A DNA stretch of 64,000 nt, taken from the NCBI GenBank assembly GCA_023248635.1, contig JAHFED010000001.1, positions 1-64,000 on the forward strand. Reading direction: 5' to 3'. The position numbers and the translations under genes are program-made. Below the pieces are notes generated by a model. The model made no database searches. It was not told the DNA's origin and saw only the letters and a list, made by a program, of their open reading frames with translations. Positions 7,890-38,213 of the stretch are shown in pieces (position 1 is the stretch's first letter; each line of letters begins with the position of its first letter). This stretch comes from Myxococcales bacterium (lineage in GTDB: Bacteria > Myxococcota > UBA727 > VGSZ01).

Positions 7890-8230
7890 GCAAGGCAGAG
7901 CGCAAGGACTCGGTACCCCCAACCCGCGGCAAGGCCAACAGCGCCGAGCTCGGCCTCGGCGACAACCCCCTGGCCGACGACGTCCTCGTCGACGCTTTCT
8001 ATGCGCCGGTGAAAAAGAAGACCGGGCGTAAGCCGCGGGGACGACAACCCCTCAAAGACGGGCGCACGTTTCGGCTGGTGACCTTCTCGGTCTACGAAGA
8101 CGACGTCGCTCGTCTCGATCAGCTGCTGGCCGATGCCCGCGAGCTGGGGCACCGACGCGTGAGCCGCAGTCAGATCGTGCGGCTGGCGCTGCGCCAGGTC
8201 GATCTCTCCCAGTTGCCGGACGAGATTTGA
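7886..8230 (+). CDS. Small ribbon-helix-helix-like DNA-binding partner of ParA
   Basis: 114 residues. The first 55 are Lys/Arg/Pro-rich and look disordered, including KKKTGRKPRGRQP. The last 55 fit a ribbon-helix-helix fold: a beta strand FRLVTFSVY, helix A EDDVARLDQLLADAREL, and helix B SRSQIVRLALRQV. Size, position, the disordered basic arm and ATGA overlap match the ParG/small-ParB partners of type Ib partition ATPases. It probably binds the CAGATC cluster upstream of parA; this is inference. The TTG start of the next gene overlaps its stop. Confidence 0.78.
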   Translation: MSKAERKDSVPPTRGKANSAELGLGDNPLADDVLVDAFYAPVKKKTGRKPRGRQPLKDGRTFRLVTFSVYEDDVARLDQLLADARELGHRRVSRSQIVRLALRQVDLSQLPDEI

Positions 8231-9099
8231 GTCCTCGAGGGGAACGCGTCGTCGTCGTCGGCCGCGGCAAGGCCGGTGGATCGCTGCTGGCCTCGCTGCA
8301 AGCGGCCGGCGTCGACGTCGTCGTCGTTTCAGCCCGCGCCAGCGGCTTCGACATCAAGACGCGCCAGCGTCTTGAACATCCAAACACCAAAACTGCGTCT
8401 CGCCGACTTGTGCCAAAGCGATTGCAGCCCACGCTCGTGCTGCTGTGCGTGCCCGATCGGGTGGTCTCCGGCATCGACGTCGACGTCGCCGACGACGTGC
8501 TGGTTTGCCATGTGGCTGGGTCTTTGGGCCTGGGTGCCTTGAAGGCCGGCAGGCGCGGTGTGTTTCATCCCCTGGCCTCCCTCGATGGAAAAACGCCTGT
8601 GCCTCGGGGGTGCCTGTGCGCCTTCGATGCCGACGACGACGACGACGCTGCGCGCTTGCAACGCCTGGCCAAGCGCCTCGGCTTGTCGCCCTGTCGCGTG
8701 CGCGATGCCGACCGCAGCCGCTACCACGCCGGTGCTGTCATCGCCGGCAACCTCGCCACCGCGCTCTTGCAGCTGGGCATCGAGCAGCTGGAACAGGCCG
8801 GCGTCGACAGCGACGTCGCCCGCGTGTCCTTGGCCCGGCTCTTGGCATCGACGGCGGCGCGCTCCATCCGCCTGCCGTTGGACGAAGCGCTGACGGGTCC
8901 CGTGGCCCGCGGCGACGATGCGACCCTGGCGGCACACTTGGGCGCCATCGACGACGCCATGACCCGTGAGGTCTATCGCCTGCTGAGCGGCGTGCTCATC
9001 GATCGGGTGGTGCGCAACCCCAAGGGCGATGAGCGCGACGACGACGACGCCGTCGACAAAGAGGCGCTGCGCCGGGCCTTGGGGTTGGGGAAGCGCTGA
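8227..9099 (+). CDS. Rossmann-like and DUF2520 domain protein carrying an in-frame hairpin repeat
   Basis: 290-residue putative NAD(P)-dependent oxidoreductase: an N-terminal Rossmann strand-turn (VVVVGRGKAGGSLLASL), then LLCVPDRVV, and a DUF2520 helical domain with GVFHPLASL and AGAVIAGNLATALL. No substrate is known for the family. The TTG start overlaps the upstream stop, so it is the third coupled gene of the partition cassette. About 25 residues between strand 2 and LLCVPD (roughly residues 40-66, containing FDIKTRQRLEHP) look foreign to the family. They are encoded by a copy of the dispersed hairpin repeat (8354-8375) and its flanks. The protein remains in frame, so the insertion was tolerated or adopted as a loop. 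Confidence 0.82.
   Translation: MSPRGERVVVVGRGKAGGSLLASLQAAGVDVVVVSARASGFDIKTRQRLEHPNTKTASRRLVPKRLQPTLVLLCVPDRVVSGIDVDVADDVLVCHVAGSLGLGALKAGRRGVFHPLASLDGKTPVPRGCLCAFDADDDDDAARLQRLAKRLGLSPCRVRDADRSRYHAGAVIAGNLATALLQLGIEQLEQAGVDSDVARVSLARLLASTAARSIRLPLDEALTGPVARGDDATLAAHLGAIDDAMTREVYRLLSGVLIDRVVRNPKGDERDDDDAVDKEALRRALGLGKR
8354..8375 (-). repeat. Hairpin repeat copy inside the DUF2520 reading frame
   Basis: A 22-base perfect palindrome with 9-base arms TCAAGACGC and GCGTCTTGA. Read on the minus strand with its flanks, it starts GATGTTCAAGACGCTGGCGC, the same string as the first unit of the array at 12814. It is thus an inverted copy of that family. Confidence 0.85.
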
Positions 9100-9170: not shown

Positions 9171-11771
9171 ATGCTCGATTTGCCGTCTGGATCGCCTCGC
9201 ATGCTCAAGCGCACCACGGCGCAGGGTCTGACCATTCTCGCGTTGGAGTCGCGGGCCGCCCCCGTCGTCGCCGTCCAGGTGTGGGTGGGGGTGGGCAGCG
9301 CCGACGAGACCGACGCCGAAGCCGGCCTGGCTCACGTGCACGAGCACATGCTCTTCAAGGGCACGGTCAAAGACGGCAAAGTTCGACGGGGCGTGGGTGA
9401 GATTGCCAGCGCCATCGAAGGCGCCGGCGGCGACATCAACGCCTGGACCAGCTACGACCAGACCGTCTACCACGTCGTCATCGCCAAGGATTTCTTCGAC
9501 ACCGGGCTCGATGTGCTGGCCGATGCCGTGCAGCACTCGGCCTTCGAAAAAGACGAGCTGGCCCGCGAGCTCGAGGTCATTCTCGAGGAGATCAAGCGCA
9601 GCGAAGACTCGCCGGGCAGCCGCGTGAGCAAGGGACTCTTCGCCGAGGCCTTCCTCCAGCATCCCTACCGCCGCCCCGTGATCGGCTACCGCGACATCGT
9701 CGCCGCCTTCACCCGCGACGACGTCACCGCCTTCTTTCGCGCCCACTACCGCGCGGATCGCCTCACCGTCGTCGTCGTCGGCGACATCGACGCCGCCAAC
9801 GCTCTCGACAAGGTCGAGGCCGCGTTTTCCGAGAGCACCCGCGGAGCGCGGGTCTTGCCTGCGCGTCCCCACGAACCCTCTCAGCGTGGTCTGCGCGCCC
9901 GCGGCCTCACCGACGACGTCGAAGAGAGCCACCTCGCCGTCGCCTTTCGCGGTCCCTCTTTGCTCGACGCCGTCACCCCGGCCCTCGATGTGCTCGGCAT
10001 CGTGCTCGGACAGGGTGAGTCCTCGCGCCTCTCGCGCGCCGTGAAGCGGGAGAAGCAGCTCGCCAACGAGGTCTACTCCTACGCCTACACGCCCAAAGAT
10101 CCGGGCCTCTTCGTCGTCGGCGCCACCTTGAATCACGAGAAGCTCGACGCCGTGCTGCCGGCCATCGGCCACGAGCTGCGGCGCGTGCAAGACGGCATCT
10201 CTCCTCAAGAGGTCGAAAAGGCCAAGGCCATCCTCGCCAGCGAGTCCGTGTACCAGCGAGAGACCGTCGAAGGGCTCGCGCGCCGCCTCGGCACTTGGCA
10301 ACTGCTCACCGGCGATCCCGCTTTCGAGGCCGAGTACAACGCGCGCGTGCAGAAGGTCACCGTCGAAGAAGTCATTGCCGCTGCCCGCGCCATCTTCGAT
10401 CCCGCGCAAGCCACGATCATCGCGCTGGTGCCCAAGGCCGAAGAGGGCCGCGTCGTCGTCGACGACCTCAAGGAAAAGGCTCACAAAGCCTTGCGCCCGC
10501 GCGTGCGCCGCCAGTCCATCGTGCAGTCCAACATCACCAAGGAGACGGTGAAGGGCACCCGCGTCGTCGTCGAACACGATCCGACCAATCCCATCGTCGC
10601 CGTCCGCGCTGCCTGGTTGGGTGGCTTGCGCGCCGAAGACGACGTCACCTCGGGCTACACGCACCTGTGCTCCGAGCTGGTGTCCAAGGGGACCGCGACC
10701 CGCACGGCCACCGAAATCGCCGACTACCTCGATCGCACGGCGGGGGGCCTCGACGGCTTCGCGGGACGCAACTCCTTCGGCTTGCGCCAAACGGTGCTGA
10801 CGCCGAACCTGCAGAGCGGCCTCGAGCTCTTCTTCGACGTCTGGAACCACGCGGTCTTCGCCGACGACGAGCTGCAGCGCCAAAAGGAGCACACCCTCGA
10901 AGACCTCCGCGCCCGCGCCGACAACCCTGCGGGCCTGGCCTTCGACCAGTTCCACCAGGCCTTGTGGAAGACCCACCCCTACCGTCGCGATCTGCTCGGC
11001 ACCCCCGAAACGGTGAAGGCGGCGACGTCGACGGCGCTCTCCCAATTCTGGCGTGCCCGAGCCCGCGTCAGCGACGCCGTCTTGTGCTTCGTCGGCGACA
11101 TCGATCCCGATCGCGCCTTCGCTTTCGTCGACGAACACCTCCACCCCGACGAGGGAGTCGCGCCGCCCCAGCCCCAGGCCGAGGCCGATCCCAGCAGCAG
11201 CGCGGTGCTGCGTCTGGTGCGCGACCGGGCTCAGGCCCACCTCGTCACGGGTGTGCGCGGCCTGACCTTGAGAGATCCCGATCGCTACGCTCTCGAGCTC
11301 TTGGTCGCTGCTCTCTCAGGACAAGGTGGTCGCCTCTTCCTCGAGCTGCGCGACAAACAATCCCTTTGCTATTCGGTGGCCGCCTACGCCGTCGACGGCC
11401 TCGAGCCCGGTGCTTTCTCGGTCTACATGGGCACGAGCCCGGACAAGGTCGAACGCGCCCTCGAGGGCATCAACAAGATCCTGCAGCGCCTCGTCGACGA
11501 AGGCATCCCCGAGGCCGAGCTCAAGCGCGGGCAGCGCTATCTCACGGGCAGCCACGCCATTGGGCTGCAGCGCACGGGCTCGAGAGCGACGACGATGTCG
11601 TTGAACGAGCTCTATGGCCTGGGCCATCTCGCCCACCGCGATCACCTGCAGAAGCTGCAGCAGGTGAGCCTCGACGACGTCCGCCGGGTGGCCCAACGCG
11701 TCCTCACGCGCACGCGCATCACGTCCATCGTCGGCCCCGAAGGCACCAGCGGTCCAGCGATCTCGGGCTGA
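9171..11771 (+). CDS. M16 family zinc metallopeptidase (two fused halves)
   Basis: 866-residue insulinase/pitrilysin-type protease; the active centre degrades peptides inside a closing clamshell. The inverted zinc motif HxxEH is HVHEH at residues 55-59, and the distal zinc Glu lies in ELEVILEEIKRSED near residue 135. The C-terminal half (from about 450) repeats the fold without an HxxEH motif, and has the substrate-binding region GQGGRLFLELRDKQSLCYSV. No signal peptide is evident, so a cytoplasmic or periplasmic site is undecided. ATG 9171 gives a ten-residue leader; ATG 9201 (MLKRTTAQGL) fits the family N-terminus equally well. It follows DUF2520 by 71 bases and ends in a convergent intergenic region filled with hairpin repeats. 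Confidence 0.93.
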   Translation: MLDLPSGSPRMLKRTTAQGLTILALESRAAPVVAVQVWVGVGSADETDAEAGLAHVHEHMLFKGTVKDGKVRRGVGEIASAIEGAGGDINAWTSYDQTVYHVVIAKDFFDTGLDVLADAVQHSAFEKDELARELEVILEEIKRSEDSPGSRVSKGLFAEAFLQHPYRRPVIGYRDIVAAFTRDDVTAFFRAHYRADRLTVVVVGDIDAANALDKVEAAFSESTRGARVLPARPHEPSQRGLRARGLTDDVEESHLAVAFRGPSLLDAVTPALDVLGIVLGQGESSRLSRAVKREKQLANEVYSYAYTPKDPGLFVVGATLNHEKLDAVLPAIGHELRRVQDGISPQEVEKAKAILASESVYQRETVEGLARRLGTWQLLTGDPAFEAEYNARVQKVTVEEVIAAARAIFDPAQATIIALVPKAEEGRVVVDDLKEKAHKALRPRVRRQSIVQSNITKETVKGTRVVVEHDPTNPIVAVRAAWLGGLRAEDDVTSGYTHLCSELVSKGTATRTATEIADYLDRTAGGLDGFAGRNSFGLRQTVLTPNLQSGLELFFDVWNHAVFADDELQRQKEHTLEDLRARADNPAGLAFDQFHQALWKTHPYRRDLLGTPETVKAATSTALSQFWRARARVSDAVLCFVGDIDPDRAFAFVDEHLHPDEGVAPPQPQAEADPSSSAVLRLVRDRAQAHLVTGVRGLTLRDPDRYALELLVAALSGQGGRLFLELRDKQSLCYSVAAYAVDGLEPGAFSVYMGTSPDKVERALEGINKILQRLVDEGIPEAELKRGQRYLTGSHAIGLQRTGSRATTMSLNELYGLGHLAHRDHLQKLQQVSLDDVRRVAQRVLTRTRITSIVGPEGTSGPAISG

Positions 11772-11876
11772 AGTGCTGATGGTTTGTGCCCTCGGCACGG
11801 ATCCAGTGCTTCCTGCTTTTGCGCCGTTGGCAGGGCGCAAGTGCCGATGGCTTGAGCCGTTGGCACGGCTCAAACG
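11771..11876 (+). repeat. Array A of hairpin repeats (three units)
   Basis: Three imperfect units of 33-36 bases: 11771-11804, 11805-11840 and 11841-11873. Each starts with a spacer like AGTGCTTCCTGC or GTGCCGATGG, followed by a palindrome around TTGGCA or similar. Stems differ: GTGCC/GGCAC in unit 1, TTGCGCC/GGGCGCAA in unit 2, TTGAGCCG/CGGCTCAA in unit 3 (11852-11873). The array fills the gap between two convergent genes. No T-tract follows the stems, so a simple terminator role is not supported. Confidence 0.85.
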
Positions 11877-12245
11877 TCAGCGCCGGGCCTTGAGCAGGCG
11901 GTCGATGGCCTCCTTCAGCAGATCTTCGTCGATGGGCTTGCTGACGTAGGCGTCGAAGCCGGAAGCCAAGATGCGTTCGCGGTCCCCGCGGATGGCGTGG
12001 GCGGTGACGGCGATGACGGGGATGGCCTGGGTCTTTTTCTCGGCGCGCAACAGGGCCACCGCCTGGAAACCGTCGAGGCGGGGCATCGAGATGTCCATCA
12101 AGATCAGCTCGGGGACCGACGCAATGGCGGCGGCAACACCGGCGGCGCCGTCGGTGGCGCTCTCGATGGTGTGATCGTCTTCGAGCATCTGGGTGAAGAG
12201 CTCGAGGTTCAGCGGGTTGTCCTCGACGATGAGGAGTCGGGCCAT
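11877..12245 (-). CDS. Single-domain response regulator (CheY-like)
   Basis: 122-residue receiver domain with no output domain. Acidic pair in LLIVEDNPLN (residues 4-13), phospho-acceptor Asp in LILMDISMP near residue 52, conserved Thr/Ala in VIAVTAHA, and the Lys of VSKPID near 104. Such stand-alone receivers relay phosphate or bind a partner protein. It lies 7 bases after the second receiver gene on the same strand, so the two are one operon. No cognate histidine kinase is in the window. Confidence 0.95.
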   Translation of the reverse strand: MARLLIVEDNPLNLELFTQMLEDDHTIESATDGAAGVAAAIASVPELILMDISMPRLDGFQAVALLRAEKKTQAIPVIAVTAHAIRGDRERILASGFDAYVSKPIDEDLLKEAIDRLLKARR

Positions 12246-12252
12246 CAGAGGC

Positions 12253-12669
12253 TCAGCCGCCTTCGAGGCGCTTCAGGGCGGCCTGGGTGCGGGAGAGGCG
12301 TATCTGGCTCTTCACCCGCGCCACCAGGGCCGTGGGGTTGTAGGGCTTCTGCAAGAAGTCGCTGCCCCCAGCGGTCAGACAAGCCGCCAAGAGGTCGTCG
12401 GAGTCGCCCGACGCGGTCAGAAACAAGATCGGGGTCTCCTGGGTGTGAGGGAGCGCGCGGAGCTGGCGGCAGCACTCGATGCCGTCCATGCCGGGCATCT
12501 TGATGTCGAGGAGGATGACGTCGGGACGGTAGCCCGCGACAGCAGCCAAACAGGCAGCACCAGAATCGGCGCTCTCGACGTCGAAGCCCTCGCCCTCGAG
12601 GTCCTGCTGCAAGAGCATGAGATTGGCCTGCTTGTCGTCGACGATCAGCACCTTGCCCGCGTCCGTCAT
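12253..12669 (-). CDS. Single-domain response regulator
   Basis: 138-residue receiver. KVLIVDDKQAN gives the acidic pair, LLDIKMPGMDG the phospho-acceptor, LFLTASG the Thr switch, and QKPYNP the conserved Lys. About 20 residues after the domain (SQIRLSRTQAALKRLEGG) form an amphipathic helix that could continue into an output or dimer helix, but the protein stops there. I chose ATG 12669 (MTDAGKVLIVDD) because the longer frame upstream lacks homology and runs into the repeat array region. First gene of the two-receiver leftward operon. Confidence 0.94.
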   Translation of the reverse strand: MTDAGKVLIVDDKQANLMLLQQDLEGEGFDVESADSGAACLAAVAGYRPDVILLDIKMPGMDGIECCRQLRALPHTQETPILFLTASGDSDDLLAACLTAGGSDFLQKPYNPTALVARVKSQIRLSRTQAALKRLEGG

Positions 12670-12813
12670 CGGCGACCCCTCCTCGGCTGCCGCATGGTGG
12701 ACCACGGCCTCGGCCCTCGCAAGCCAGCTGGACGTTCGGCCGACAGACCTGGCCGCCGTCGCTTTGCGGTCTGCCAGGGCCACGTTTTCGCCCTGTCAAG
12801 AAGCGCAAGCGGA

Positions 12814-12986
12814 TGGAAGTCGATGTTCAAGACGCTGGCGCGTTGGAAGTTTGCTGGTTCAAGACGCTGGCACGTCTGGAAGTGCTTCCTGCTTTGCGCC
12901 GTTGGCACGGCACAAAGTGCTCCCTGCTTTGCGCCGTTGGCACGGCCCAAAGTTTTGATGGTTCAAGACGCTGGCACGTCTTGAAC
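12814..12986 (+). repeat. Array B of hairpin repeats (five units) between divergent genes
   Basis: Five units: 12814-12843, 12844-12876, 12877-12915, 12916-12950 and 12951-12985. Spacers resemble TGGAAGTGCTTCCTGC. Units 1, 2 and 5 carry the TTCAAGACG-type stem; units 3 and 4 carry TTTGCGCCG paired to CGGCACAAA or CGGCCCAAA. Unit 5 is the cleanest: arms GTTCAAGACG and CGTCTTGAAC around loop CTGGCA (12961-12986). The gap 12670-13018 separates the receiver operon (leftward) and the kinase gene (rightward), so both promoters must lie in or beside this array. I see no clear -35/-10 pair. Confidence 0.85.
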
Positions 12987-13018
12987 ATCAGAACTTCAAC
13001 GGCCAGACCATCAACACC

Positions 13019-15253
13019 TTGCTGAACGTCAAATTGAAAACCGGGCGGGCGGGCTTTGTCCTGGTCCTCCAAGGAGCGCTCGATGGGCCCGTGAGCTGGC
13101 CCTCCTTCGACGCGCTGCCGACCGCGCTCACGGGCGGGCTCGTCATCGTCGACTGCGGGGGTGTGCCCGAGGTGAGTCCCGCCGGCGTCGACGCCCTCTT
13201 GCGCGGCTTGCAGTCGGTGCCGGCCAAGAGACGCCTCCTCGTCAACGTGCGACCCGCTCTGCTCTCGGCGGTGGCCCTGTTTCCGGGGGCCATCGAGATG
13301 GCTGGCATCGGCAGCGCTTGGCTCCCGCTGGTCTGCATCCGCTGCCAACGCGCTCAGGAGCAGCTGCTCGACCTGCGCTTGCACGAGGTGGCCGCGCGAA
13401 CCTTTGGTCTGCCCCCTTTTGCTTGCACAGGCTGCCAGGGCCCCTGCGGCCTCGACGACGACGCTCTGGTGCTCTTCTCGCCCTTTGCGGAACAGCCGCC
13501 GCTGCACCTGCCCGACGGCATCGACGCCTTTTGGCCCCCGCCGCGCGCCGCTCCCACCTCGCGCACCCAGGTGGAGCTCGACGTCGCCGGCGCCGTCGAC
13601 GTCGCCGTCACCGCGGTCTGGCTGTCGGGCACCTTGGCGCCGTCGCCATCGTTGGCGCGCCTGGCTCCGCGCCTGGATGGCACCCTGATCTTCGTCGACG
13701 ACGGCGTACACGCGACGACGGCGGCGGGGCTCGAAGCGTTGCGCGATCTGCTGGGGACGCTGCCGGCTTGGATCGCGCGCTTGTCGCCGGTGCTGGCCGA
13801 GGGCCTGGCCACGACCGTCAACGGCTGGGGCAGCGCGAGCGTGGTCTCGATGCGCCTGCCCTTTCGCTGCGAGAGCTGCGGCGACACCGTGCTGGTCGAC
13901 GTCGACCTCGATGAGCGCGAGCGCTTGGCCTCAGAGCTGCCGCCCCTGTGCCCACGGTGCTCCACGGTGCTGGCCCGCGCCTTCTCCGAACGCGATCAGC
14001 TGAGTCTGGACACGCTGCCCTTGCTCCAGCCGCCGCCAGAGGTCGCCGCCTACCTCGAGAGCCACCTCCATCCACCCTCGCGCGATCGGCAGTCGGAGTG
14101 GACCCAGGTGGCCAGCGAGCAGGCCCCCGCTGTCGGCGCCGTCGACGCAGATCGGCGCGCTGACCCGTCGGCTGTGCCCGCGCTGGCCCCGTCGGGCGTG
14201 CCCGATTTCAGCGCCCGGCCCCCAACGACGGGGCGCGTGCAGGGAACCCGCTACGAAATCACGCGGCGGCTCGGGGTGGGCGGCATGGCCGAGACCCTGC
14301 TCGGGCGCCAGACCGGCATCGGCGGCTTCGAGAAAAGGGTGGTGATCAAGCGCATCCTTCCTTCGCTGGCGGCCAAGCCCGACTTCATCGACATGTTCCT
14401 GCACGAGGCCCGCATCGCCGCGCGCATCAACCATTCCAACGTCGTGCAAATCTTCGACTTCGGCCGTGCACGTGGTGAATATTACATTGTAATGGAGTAC
14501 GTAAAAGGATACGATCTTGCCGCGATTCTGAAGACGTCACAGACGCTGAACCGCCCCATTCCCATCGAGCTGGCCATTCGCATGGTGGCCGATCTCTGCG
14601 GCGGCCTCGCCGCTGCCCACACCGCCCGCGACGACCACGGCAACCTGGATCCCATCATTCACCGCGACGTCTCGCCGCACAACGTGCTGATCTCCGCCGA
14701 CGGCGCCACCAAGCTGGCCGACTTCGGGATCGCCAAGCCCCAATCCCACGTCGGACAGACACAGCCAGGCGAGCTCAAGGGAAAGATCGTGTACATGGCT
14801 CCCGAGGCTCTGCGCAACGAACCACCCACCATCAAGCTCGACATCTACGCCGCCGGCCTGATCCTCTATACTTTGTTGGCCGGCAAGAATCCCTATACAC
14901 GGGCCAGCGAAATCCAGAGCATGTACGCCGTCGCCCACGAAGGTTTGCCGCCCATCATCACCCAGCGCCGCGACGTGCCTTTCACGCTGGCAGCGACCCT
15001 GGGCCGCGCGGTCAACCGCGATCCGGCCGCCCGCTTTCCGTCGGCCCAAGCGCTGCAGTTGCACCTTGAGGCCTTCTTGGGTGAGCTCGGGCGCCCCGCC
15101 ACGCCCATGCACCTGGCGCTGTGGGTCAACGAGCTGATGGCCACCCAACCCGACAAGCCCTCGCCGATGGAAGGCACGCCTTCGTCGTCGCTGGAGCTGT
15201 TGGACATTGGCGGCCTGGGTGGCATCAGCGACGTACCGATGTTTGAGCCCTAG
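13019..15253 (+). CDS. STAS-like / zinc-ribbon / Ser-Thr protein kinase fusion
   Basis: 744 residues. Residues 1-100 and about 180-270 look like two STAS-like (anti-anti-sigma type) domains (VIVDCGGVPEVSPAGVDALL; LIFVDDGVHATTAAGLEALR). Each is followed by a Cys cluster: CIRC plus CTGCQGPC (about 106-142), and CESC plus CPRC (about 285-314). A linker leads to a Hanks-type kinase (about 405-690): Gly-rich loop GVGGMAETLL, VIKRI Lys, HRDVSPHNVL, DFGIA, and APE as APEAL. There is no transmembrane segment, so it is cytosolic. TTG 13019 is the best start seen, but translation could begin further upstream. The stop TAG lies in the loop of a hairpin repeat (15241-15266). Domain calls for the N-terminal half are by pattern only. 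Confidence 0.85.
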   Translation: MLNVKLKTGRAGFVLVLQGALDGPVSWPSFDALPTALTGGLVIVDCGGVPEVSPAGVDALLRGLQSVPAKRRLLVNVRPALLSAVALFPGAIEMAGIGSAWLPLVCIRCQRAQEQLLDLRLHEVAARTFGLPPFACTGCQGPCGLDDDALVLFSPFAEQPPLHLPDGIDAFWPPPRAAPTSRTQVELDVAGAVDVAVTAVWLSGTLAPSPSLARLAPRLDGTLIFVDDGVHATTAAGLEALRDLLGTLPAWIARLSPVLAEGLATTVNGWGSASVVSMRLPFRCESCGDTVLVDVDLDERERLASELPPLCPRCSTVLARAFSERDQLSLDTLPLLQPPPEVAAYLESHLHPPSRDRQSEWTQVASEQAPAVGAVDADRRADPSAVPALAPSGVPDFSARPPTTGRVQGTRYEITRRLGVGGMAETLLGRQTGIGGFEKRVVIKRILPSLAAKPDFIDMFLHEARIAARINHSNVVQIFDFGRARGEYYIVMEYVKGYDLAAILKTSQTLNRPIPIELAIRMVADLCGGLAAAHTARDDHGNLDPIIHRDVSPHNVLISADGATKLADFGIAKPQSHVGQTQPGELKGKIVYMAPEALRNEPPTIKLDIYAAGLILYTLLAGKNPYTRASEIQSMYAVAHEGLPPIITQRRDVPFTLAATLGRAVNRDPAARFPSAQALQLHLEAFLGELGRPATPMHLALWVNELMATQPDKPSPMEGTPSSSLELLDIGGLGGISDVPMFEP

Positions 15254-18398: not shown

Positions 18399-18401
18399 TC
18401 T

Positions 18402-18592
18402 GATCCCCGATCTCGCTGAACTTCGACCGCGGTCTCGTTCATCTCCGTCGGGGATGCTCTTCTGGGAGGTCTGATGCAGACCCCTGACGCGGGGCCCCCC
18501 ACCAACTCCGCGTTCCGCGGGCGCGCTTCACGCGCGTCATCCCGCGTCTTTCCCATCTCGGAACGCGCTCGAACATCAAGCGGACCGGGATG
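18402..18592 (+). repeat. MITE-like dispersed element, copy 1
   Basis: About 190 bases, highly similar to the reverse complement of 39341-39558. Shared landmarks include GATCCCCGATCTCGCTGA, TCCGTCGGGGATGCTCTTCT, CGTTCCGCGGGCGCGCTTCA and TCTTTCCCATCTCGGA. Internal inverted ends TGAACTTCGACCGCGG and the complement of its right end (TTGATGTTCGAGCGCG) are similar. It contains no transposase. It fills the gap between the hypothetical gene and glgP; the remainder to 18656 shows nothing recognisable. Confidence 0.85.
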
Positions 18593-18656
18593 AGGTTCGC
18601 CCCCTCTTGGGGAAGGACTCCCGCCCTCCCCGCAGCGGAGAGGGTGGGACCGCCGC

Positions 18657-35876: not shown

Positions 35877-38213
35877 GTGTCAGCGTCGAAGCCGCCGGAT
35901 CGGGGTGGCTCTCCCCTCGTTACGGGAGAGGTGACGGCGTCGGCGCGCCGCGGCCATCCGCGATCGGTCTCCTCGCTCCTCAACGAGCTGCCGTCGAAGC
36001 ACAAAAGCCGGACCGGACAGCCCGTCGACGTCGACCTCGACAGCGTCAACGACGGCGACATCATCGATGGGTCGTCCGAAGATCCAGGGATGTTGATCGC
36101 CGGCTCTGGCCTGACGGGCTCTGCCGAACTGCACCCGCTGGTGAAACCCATGGTGTCGGGAGAGCTCCCCGGCGACGACGACGAAGCCGACTCCACTGCC
36201 AAGCGCCACGTCCCCGACGACGGCGCCCTGCCCGACAGCGAGCGCAGCTTCGGCCCCTACACGCTGCTGCGCCGCCTCGCTTTTGGCGGCATGGGTGAGG
36301 TGTTCCTGGCGCGCCGCGACGCCAACATTTCGGGCCCGCTGGGGGCGGCTTCTGGCGTGCGCTCGGGCTTGGCGCGGCTCGTCGTCATCAAGCGCATCCT
36401 CAACCACATGCGGCGCGACGAGAAGCACCGCCAGATGTTCGTCGACGAAGCCCGGGTCCAAACGCTGCTGCGCTCCTCGCACATCGTGCAGATCCACGAC
36501 GTCGGCGAGATCGATGGCCAGGTCTTCCTCGCCATGGAGCACGTGCACGGTCCGTCGTGGCGCGGGCTCATCGATCGCTGCCGCAAGCTCAAGCAGCACA
36601 TCCCGGTCGCCTACGTCGTCGATATGATGGTCCATGCAGCCGAGGGGCTCAGCTATGCCCACAACCTGCACGACGCGGGCACGGGCTCGGCGCTGCGCAT
36701 CGTGCACCGAGACATCAACCCCCACAACGTGCTCGTCACCTACGACGGCGTCGTGAAGCTCATCGACTTCGGCATCGCCAAGAGCGAGTTGCGCGAACAG
36801 CAGACCGAGACCGGCACCATCAAGGGCAAGTTTGCCTACATGTCGCCGGAGCAGTCCGCCGCCGAGCCCCTCGACGCGCGCAGTGATTTGTTCGCCCTCG
36901 GCATCTGCCTCTACGAGCTGCTCACGCTCACCAACCCCTTCAAGAAGGGGAACATCGTCTTGTCCCTCGAGGCCATCCAAAAGAGCGACCCCCGCCCTGT
37001 GGGCTCGCTGCGACCGGGTGCCGCCTTCTTGTCTCCCGTCGTCGAGCGCATGCTGCGAAAGAACCCCGACGACCGCTTCGCCGACTGCGCCGAGGTCGCC
37101 GCCGCCCTGCGCCAGCTGCGCCAGGACGGATTGGTGCCCGAGCCCAAGCAGCCTTTGCCGACGTGGCTGCGGGAGGTCTTCGCAGAAGAGATCCAAGCCC
37201 ACCTGCGGGTCCTCGATCAGACCGGATCCGACGTCGACGTCGCCGTCTCGTCCACCCACCTGCGCCACACGGGCTCTTTTCCCCTCGCCGCGCGGCCGCT
37301 GCCTCCCGACCCGACTGCCGAAGACCTCCCGCTCCCCGCAAGCCTGCTGCCCGAGGGACACGGCACCGGACCCACCGGCGCCCTGCAACTCGCGCCGCCG
37401 CCCCGCCGTGCTCCGCTGATGGCCGCCAGCCTCGCCGCCGCCCTCGTCGCTCTCGTCGCGCTGGCGGGCTGGTATTTTTCACGCGACCCATCGCCTCAGC
37501 CCGTCGTCGCCGTCGACGTCACGCCCCAGGTCCTGACCCACGTCGATCCCGTTGCCGTGGTGGTCGTCGACGCCGGCCAGCCCGCGGCCCAAGAAGCCCA
37601 ACCCGCCGTCGTCGACGCCGGCGCCATCGTCGGCGACAACGAGCCCGACGTGGTGCAAAACCGCAGGCACAAGCCCGAGCGCCGACATCCAGACAAGAAC
37701 GCCAAAGCCGCCAAAGCGGAGAAGACCGAGAAGACCGAAGTCGTCGACGCCGGTGAGAAGGTCGAGAAGGTCGAGAAGGTCGAGAAGGTCGAGAAGGTCG
37801 AGAAGGTCGAGAAGGTCGAGAAGGTCGAGAAGGTCGAGAAGGTCGAGAAGGTCGAGAAGGTCGAGAAGGTCGAGAAGGTCGTCGACGTCGTCGGCAAAGT
37901 CACCGTTTCTGCCGAGGGCTTCGTGGTCCGCGGCGCACGCAACGTCGGAGAAAAATCACCCGCAGTGCTCGTCGTCGACGACGCAGACGCTCCCTTCAAG
38001 CTCAAGCTGCGCGTCTCCGTCGATGGCAGCGGCGCGCCCCGCGTGTCCGTCGAGAGCGATCCCTGGGCCATCGTTCGTGTCGATCAGGTAGGACGAGGCA
38101 AGACCCCCGTCACCAACGTCGCTCTGATCGCCGGACGCAAGATGTCGCTCTCCCTGTCAAACCCCAGCGGGGCGCAGATGGACGTCTCGTTGACCTTCAC
38201 CGGCAAGCCCTGA
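35877..38213 (+). CDS. Membrane-anchored Ser/Thr protein kinase with EKV repeat stalk and PEGA-like domain
   Basis: 778 residues. N-terminal 125 residues are disordered. Kinase about 128-400: FGGMGEVFLAR loop, VIKRIL Lys, HRDINPHNVLV, IDFGIA and SPEQS. A Pro/Ala linker leads to one membrane helix (about 512-532, AASLAAALVALVALAGW). The exported part has an Ala/Val/Asp spacer, 14 exact repeats of EKV (627-668), and a C-terminal PEGA-like fold (WAIVRVDQVGRGKTPVT). This topology suggests a receptor kinase whose exported part senses the envelope. GTG 35877 is supported by position after a divergent gap; the protein is one of three such kinases in the window. Confidence 0.92.
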   Translation: MSASKPPDRGGSPLVTGEVTASARRGHPRSVSSLLNELPSKHKSRTGQPVDVDLDSVNDGDIIDGSSEDPGMLIAGSGLTGSAELHPLVKPMVSGELPGDDDEADSTAKRHVPDDGALPDSERSFGPYTLLRRLAFGGMGEVFLARRDANISGPLGAASGVRSGLARLVVIKRILNHMRRDEKHRQMFVDEARVQTLLRSSHIVQIHDVGEIDGQVFLAMEHVHGPSWRGLIDRCRKLKQHIPVAYVVDMMVHAAEGLSYAHNLHDAGTGSALRIVHRDINPHNVLVTYDGVVKLIDFGIAKSELREQQTETGTIKGKFAYMSPEQSAAEPLDARSDLFALGICLYELLTLTNPFKKGNIVLSLEAIQKSDPRPVGSLRPGAAFLSPVVERMLRKNPDDRFADCAEVAAALRQLRQDGLVPEPKQPLPTWLREVFAEEIQAHLRVLDQTGSDVDVAVSSTHLRHTGSFPLAARPLPPDPTAEDLPLPASLLPEGHGTGPTGALQLAPPPRRAPLMAASLAAALVALVALAGWYFSRDPSPQPVVAVDVTPQVLTHVDPVAVVVVDAGQPAAQEAQPAVVDAGAIVGDNEPDVVQNRRHKPERRHPDKNAKAAKAEKTEKTEVVDAGEKVEKVEKVEKVEKVEKVEKVEKVEKVEKVEKVEKVEKVEKVVDVVGKVTVSAEGFVVRGARNVGEKSPAVLVVDDADAPFKLKLRVSVDGSGAPRVSVESDPWAIVRVDQVGRGKTPVTNVALIAGRKMSLSLSNPSGAQMDVSLTFTGKP
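37755..37880 (+). repeat. Minisatellite GAGAAGGTC x14
   Basis: Fourteen exact, uninterrupted 9-base units encode (EKV)14 in the stalk of the PEGA-domain kinase. Absence of synonymous changes means recent expansion or active homogenisation, and length variation in frame is expected between strains. Confidence 0.97.

Follow-up and report, generated by a model that had tools for sequence, protein, structure and literature searches.

The 64,000-nucleotide stretch of Myxococcales bacterium DNA studied here (GenBank assembly GCA_023248635.1, contig JAHFED010000001.1, positions 1 to 64,000; hereafter the window) carries two arrays of a short hairpin repeat whose units belong to a dispersed, high-copy family that is private to this genome. 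The units appear to be mobile, as shown by their absence from orthologous gene positions in relatives. Taken together, our observations make it likely that each is a copy of a small mobile DNA element, non-autonomous and of the repetitive extragenic palindrome (REP) type, whose insertion would regenerate its own target and whose enzyme would read the hairpin loop. The movement of REP-type hairpins is still poorly understood, with little direct evidence of insertion; in this genome, empty and filled sites occur naturally and the target can be read.

Size and range of the hairpin family

In each unit a short spacer leads into a 10-bp palindrome whose loop is TGGC; the unit measures about 33–35 bases in all and the hairpin repeat itself about 24 bases. 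A sequence-only reading of the window had described two arrays with the loop core TTGGCA/CTGGCA; both arrays are present where it placed them and the stems it quoted are correct, and the loop is indeed conserved, but its outer bases pair, so TGGC describes it better. The constant core is this tetraloop; the T-A or C-G that closes it counts as the first pair of the stem, covarying with the other pairs.

We searched the genome of origin (G000; 6.53 Mb in a 135-contig assembly, 96.7% complete, with some contigs ending inside arrays) with a type A pattern (TTTG[C/A]GCCGT-TGGC-ACGGC[G/T]CAAA) and a type B pattern (TTCAAGACGC-TGGC-GCGTCTTGAA). Genome-wide counts come from such pattern searches; base-by-base reading covered about 18% of the genome, partly picked for type A matches, and gene calls are codon-usage predictions made in this analysis. 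The 31-base type A unit had at least 224 matches with three or fewer mismatches and the type B hairpin had 459 copies, in comparison to 0 in the reversed control of each, which answers the question of chance occurrence that the sequence-only reading had left to a genome scan and makes the family (more than 680 A and B copies in this chromosome) far larger than that reading had noted. Since contigs start in arrays or N runs lie within arrays (C48, C51 and C64; L014, L066), arrays are probably longer, and copies more numerous, than counted.

Pattern searches found neither A nor B in two genomes of the same genus, and about 95 relatives gave no match except one hit with 3 mismatches, probably by chance. 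Exact scans of one genome per species across 84,980 species, a collection that may omit the genome of origin, likewise returned no A or B. In an unbiased 400-kb contig, TGGC was an outlier among all 256 tetraloops (52 near-perfect hairpins vs. a median of 2); the only comparable tetraloop was TCGA (58 hairpins), which is palindromic, common and counted on both strands. The low-specificity core CGYTGGCACG was enriched in the genome of origin only and at most marginally in G001, and no TGGC family emerged when hairpins were grouped de novo in sampled sequence from G001 (99 kb) and from G002 and G003 (400 kb each). The exact hairpin family appears to be unreported in the literature. The broader statement of the sequence-only reading, that no named repeat family has this pattern, did not hold: alternative complementary stems around a short, fixed loop are on record for REP families (PMC3733652).

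Stem classes and compensated pairing

The family divides into classes by stem: A1 (TTTGCGCCGT/ACGGCGCAAA), A2 (TTTGAGCCGT/ACGGCTCAAA), B (TTCAAGACGC/GCGTCTTGAA), C (GTTCATCGCC/GGCGATGAAC or -T) and rare D types (CTTCAGGCGC/GCGCCTGAAG and CTTCCGGCGC/GCGCCGGAAG). Stem feet read GGATG, TGATG or GATGG in B and part of A2, and CCTGC in A1. Between A1 and B, five of the five differing stem pairs are changed on both sides, and for any two class consensuses all stem differences are two-sided and paired. The idea of a hairpin family with compensated stems was thus borne out as one dispersed family with a constant loop, in which subfamily stems differ only by two-sided pairs. Because they share the spacer form AAGTnCnGATGG, A2 and B look like a single lineage separated by four compensated pairs. 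As a separate observation, class C forms a 63-bp unit that alternates two hairpins, TTCATCGCC-T[G/A]GC-GGCGATGAA and TTCACCGACA...TGTCGGTGAA (L041 11800–11920, L056 9530–9630).

When the arms were left free and only spacer and loop were fixed, 105 of 128 hits paired at 9 or 10 of the 10 positions. Single hairpins folded as DNA gave z = -5.3 and -6.3, which likewise speaks against chance. In this spacer-and-loop selection, 39 distinct family arms (a set that omits 5 off-family or out-of-register hits and 2 poorly matching arms) paired in 89.5% of cells vs. 77.1% in shuffles, with 67 two-sided-change cells vs. 28.6. Covariation was 0.418 vs. 0.209 and was reached by none of 500 shuffles, which keep relatedness, the class-level result resting on few independent events. 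Controls with slid arms paired at most 48%, supporting the register. Substitutions inside a class behave differently: 301 are one-sided breaks and 74 are wobbles, in comparison to 18 two-sided paired changes; many TTTGCGCC...GGCTCAAA hybrids exemplify this one-sided decay. Selection of the fold, which the sequence-only reading had proposed, asking whether stem changes were compensatory across all copies, is accordingly visible between subfamilies and not copy by copy. Because the differences between classes are two-sided but substitutions within classes are one-sided, pairing would seem to be required of the source copies that spread and not of each resident copy, the pattern predicted by a mobile hairpin. 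The case separates selection for pairing at spreading, seen between subfamilies, from neutral decay of residents.

Insertion, placement and the window arrays

Presence and absence of units fit insertion. The lipB gene in L056 (9083–9985; named from sequence) holds about 55 extra residues, in frame and largely made up of two class C units, and in G001, G002, G003 and G005 the two protein halves adjoin directly or almost directly. Similarly, in the DUF2520/Rossmann gene of the window (8227–9099), the segment with an in-frame type B hairpin is absent from three relatives. A second, longer repeat of the genome, repeat E, provides further sites: 20 of its 28 places are empty (...ATCCCAAGTCCAG-TTGAAGTT-CGCTC...), five are filled (...CCAG-TTGAAGTT-TGGATGTTCAAGACGCTGGCGCGTC-TTGAAGTT-CGCTC...) with one to at least 5 type B units of 33–34 bp, two hold truncated units and one is divergent. 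The type B units sit exactly at the TTGAAG left empty in the 20 other copies, and the DNA added is exactly one array period per unit. Where E and lipB are empty, the hairpin core is missing altogether.

In 31 of 60 type B arrays TGAAG lies ahead of the first unit, in comparison to about 1% of random positions, and the type B unit itself ends at the right in TTGAAG, its own target sequence. Filled and empty E sites fit insertion next to the target with the target regenerated, the 8-bp overlap TTGAAGTT leaving the exact cut ambiguous. These comparisons show what looks like a target preference, regeneration of the target at the right end, and a constant loop with conserved pairing. In the scheme we propose, a unit would form a hairpin while its DNA is single-stranded, be cut between AAG and T on both sides and be joined into another such AAG/T site. 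Because the unit ends in TTGAAG, each insertion would recreate the target immediately downstream, explaining the direct tandem arrays; these would grow by repeated insertion, helped by replication slippage, into head-to-tail order. Recognition by the enzyme would depend on the TGGC loop and on the paired form of the arms, not on the letters of the stem, so that stems altered but still paired could give rise to new subfamilies that spread, while resident copies would be free to decay.

We examined placement in a sample of 1.18 Mb with 317 units in 116 arrays. Although 87% of the DNA is coding (13% intergenic), 97 of the 116 arrays are intergenic; gene settings were convergent in 25, divergent in 22 and codirectional in 43. 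Of neighbouring A and B units, 167 pairs stand head-to-tail and 8 inverted, at periods of 33–35 bp, and in mixed arrays, array 2 of the window included, A and B units abut directly through the same AAG/T junction. The units in the window are as follows.

11771–11874, + strand: array 1, three units (one degenerate, two good), loops at 11828 and 11861
11771–11803, + strand: unit 1, degenerate, read directly; spacer AAGTGCTGATGG of A2 type, remnant stem GTGCC/GGCAC
11805–11841, + strand: unit 2, type A1; spacer AGTGCTTCCTGCT, hairpin 11818–11841, loop TGGC 11828–11831, 2 positions unpaired
11842–11874, + strand: unit 3, type A2; spacer GTGCCGATGG, hairpin 11851–11874, loop TGGC 11861–11864
12816–12989: array 2, five units, TGGC loops at 12836, 12868, 12903, 12938 and 12972
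12816–12849, + strand: unit 1, type B; hairpin 12826–12849, right arm decayed or broken (GCGTTGGAAG)
12847–12881, + strand: unit 2, type B; spacer AAGTTTGCTGG, hairpin 12858–12881
12880–12916, + strand: unit 3, type A1; AAGTGCTTCCTGC and hairpin 12893–12916, 1 mismatch
12915–12951, + strand: unit 4, type A1; AAGTGCTCCCTGC and hairpin 12928–12951, 1 mismatch
12950–12985, + strand: unit 5, type B; AAGTTTTGATGG and hairpin 12962–12985
12986–13000, - strand: inverted spacer copy (CATCAGAACTTCAAC), which lengthens the last palindrome of array 2
8354–8375, - strand: single type B hairpin, in frame inside the DUF2520/Rossmann gene, missed by the sequence-only reading

An inverted spacer copy stands beside the last unit in a like arrangement at C9:372303 and L051:3671. 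Array 1 lies between convergent genes, an M16-type peptidase gene (+ strand, its stop codon ending at 11771) and a response-regulator gene (- strand, 11877–12245), and array 2 between the divergent starts of a second response regulator (- strand) and of a gene at 13019 (+ strand); these names come from translations alone. At both of these sites tolerated insertion is the best reading, and nothing indicates that the arrays regulate the adjoining genes.

Three other explanations deserve weighing. It is improbable that the units serve as transcribed RNA hairpins at 3' ends or in leaders (terminators, mRNA stabilisers or protein-binding loops) with the fold selected at each site. Arrays do occupy intergenic regions including 3' ends, and the one at 11771 abuts a stop codon, yet the 22 between divergent genes, window array 2 among them, are hard to place in this scheme. 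REPs elsewhere are often transcribed (PMC3733652), but a UGGC loop is strand-specific and the loop strand at codirectional sites was sense in 22 arrays and antisense in 21. Pairing covaries between subfamilies, whereas mutations within copies are uncompensated; moreover, no U-tract follows the hairpins, the one terminator-like site is not at a unit hairpin (0.9 expected), and Rfam 15 at the gathering score matched only two tRNAs in the window and none of the units. Binding sites for a dimeric protein that favours dyads (a nucleoid, chromosome segregation or global regulatory protein), which we hold to be very improbable, would suit perfect palindromes in clustered, intergenic arrays; however, the subfamilies share only an asymmetric loop and a few stem bases, which a dyad-reading protein would not tolerate, some copies are insertions inside genes, and species of the same genus have none. 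Least probable is that replication slippage and gene conversion simply expanded tandem repeats, with no transposition involved. This would match the regular 33–35-bp periods and identical adjoining units, and slippage probably contributes to array length, but such expansion cannot account for the first unit at each of hundreds of unrelated loci, in lipB or in repeat E.

Other repeats were noticed alongside the family. Families E1 and E2 are long compound repeats with several hairpins in a row, dispersed in the genome, with an E2 copy at 18401–18600 of the window and further copies in C9 at 92750, 98311, 110729, 137331, 168381, 220551, 236901, 262482, 278738 and 336319. Their hairpins include GGAGGGTCTG-n3-CAGACCCTCC and GTCGAGGC-GAA-GCCTCGAC, among others, and one of the families carries type B units; they look like further mobile multi-hairpin elements. 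Predicted genes with A, B or C hairpins inside or near their termini are found at L055 6995–8252, L059 156–1221, L060 4793–5279, L064 13958–14696, L142 15430–17545 and L158 7961–8993, where the hairpins add peptides such as FKTLARLE, FKxRQRLEH and TGSSPGGDE. At 37755–37881 of the window, the 9-mer GAGAAGGTC forms a perfect 14-copy tandem repeat.

The mobilising enzyme and known systems

Several points weigh against regarding the units as mobile elements of REP type. TGAAG stands at the left edge of only about half of the type B arrays, and type A has a less sharply defined target (AAG or CAG). Precise deletion between the flanking TTGAAGTT repeats could, in principle, also have produced the empty E sites, and E copies with type B units might have spread as composites, in which case five need not mean five insertions. 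The tetranucleotide tag of classical REPs, GTAG or of GYRG/GTGG type, is absent from the feet, none of 267 units having GTAG within 6 nt of either foot, and the 96.7%-complete assembly yielded no active Y1/RAYT transposase. The one RAYT-like protein we detected, when aligned with canonical relatives, reads MKSEVR at the HUH position, not MPNHxH/MPDHxH, and carries tryptophan in place of the catalytic tyrosine (RWVHLWP, not RYI..NP); its gene has an orthologue in G001 and probably in G002 (a single family hit), both of which are without A and B.

This gene was recovered with NCBIfam NF047646 (C9:359993–360397, 43 bits, cut-off 80), whereas Pfam Y1_Tnp gave no match above threshold in the genome, so that Pfam alone missed it; a PDB search with the protein gave nothing useful. 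The full gene (L141 961–1914, C9 about 359453–360406) encodes a DnaA-like C-terminal domain, as do subclass 2.1 proteins (PMC6006769), and its G001 orthologue has the same motif losses and similar gene neighbours. A simple REP-RAYT pairing is argued against by this orthologue, since G001 has no A or B. The gene is separated by 13 bp from a class C hairpin with a TGGC loop, an adjacency expected for about 1 gene in 8. The mobilising enzyme perhaps lies in the missing ~3% of the assembly, has been lost or is of another kind. RAYT-like proteins with a DnaA-type C-terminal domain and without HUH and tyrosine (L141 961–1914; L099 1384–2373) occur in at least 2 species of the genus with similar neighbours, and are apparently domesticated transposases. 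The genome therefore poses the question of what moves hundreds of hairpins when the one RAYT relative detected in it seems to be catalytically inactive. We entertain only with considerable doubt a new class of tag-less hairpin elements, read by their TGGC loop, inserting 3' of TTGAAG, recreating the target, laying direct tandem arrays and mobilised by an enzyme other than a Y1 HUH transposase or by an HUH-less RAYT relative with another nuclease.

Among known systems, a CRISPR array was ruled out, the spacers being constant and the units dispersed genome-wide. The family works like REP, and we place it in neither named superfamily (GTAG, CGTC). Published REP families are high-copy palindromes with short loops of fixed sequence, comprise subfamilies whose stems differ by complementary changes, include copies inside genes and have expanded in a species-specific way (PMC3733652, PMC3116915), and the units here are likewise short perfect or near-perfect palindromes in many copies, mainly extragenic. 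They resemble the high-copy, 20–40-bp perfect palindromes of the GTAG superfamily served by RAYT/TnpA-REP (PMC3733652, PMC3116915, PMC8266576) in being mostly intergenic and sometimes intragenic, species-specific and clustered, with alternative complementary stems. They differ in that neighbours are nearly all head-to-tail and not inverted dimers, divergent intergenic regions are occupied, and a target, TTGAAG, is visible; no cognate RAYT (a Y1 HUH tyrosine transposase) flanked by the repeat was found in this genome. With CGTC-tagged REPs (including Neisseria dRS3 and Rickettsia RPE-4/6; PMC3733652) they share A-T pairs at the start of stems, 4–5-base loops, heterogeneous stems, the lack of a known dedicated transposase and in-frame copies in genes. 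Unlike in those families, whose terminal tag is CGTC, TGTC or CCTC, the CGTC tag and CCA tail are not constant (CGTC/GACG near the foot in 18 of 267 units), the stem has 10 bp in place of 8–9, and units run head-to-tail, whereas CGTC families form mostly head-head dimers with negligible head-tail pairs.

The scheme also has parallels among mobile single-strand hairpins. As in IS200/IS605 elements (IS608, ISDra2), hairpins would be recognised and insertion would occur 3' of a short target without target duplication; unlike these elements, the units have no transposase gene in or beside them, one hairpin each, and a right end that repeats the target. Pseudomonas REPINs (PMC3116915) are similar in their single-strand hairpin units, evidence of movement, tandem clusters and compensatory hairpin changes, but a REPIN consists of two inverted REPs, whereas the unit here is one hairpin in direct tandem. 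Group 3 TnpA-REP enzymes need particular bases in the loop of a perfect palindrome, whereas the identity of the stem bases is of less importance (PMC8266576), behaviour with which a loop-reading enzyme of the kind proposed here would be compatible.

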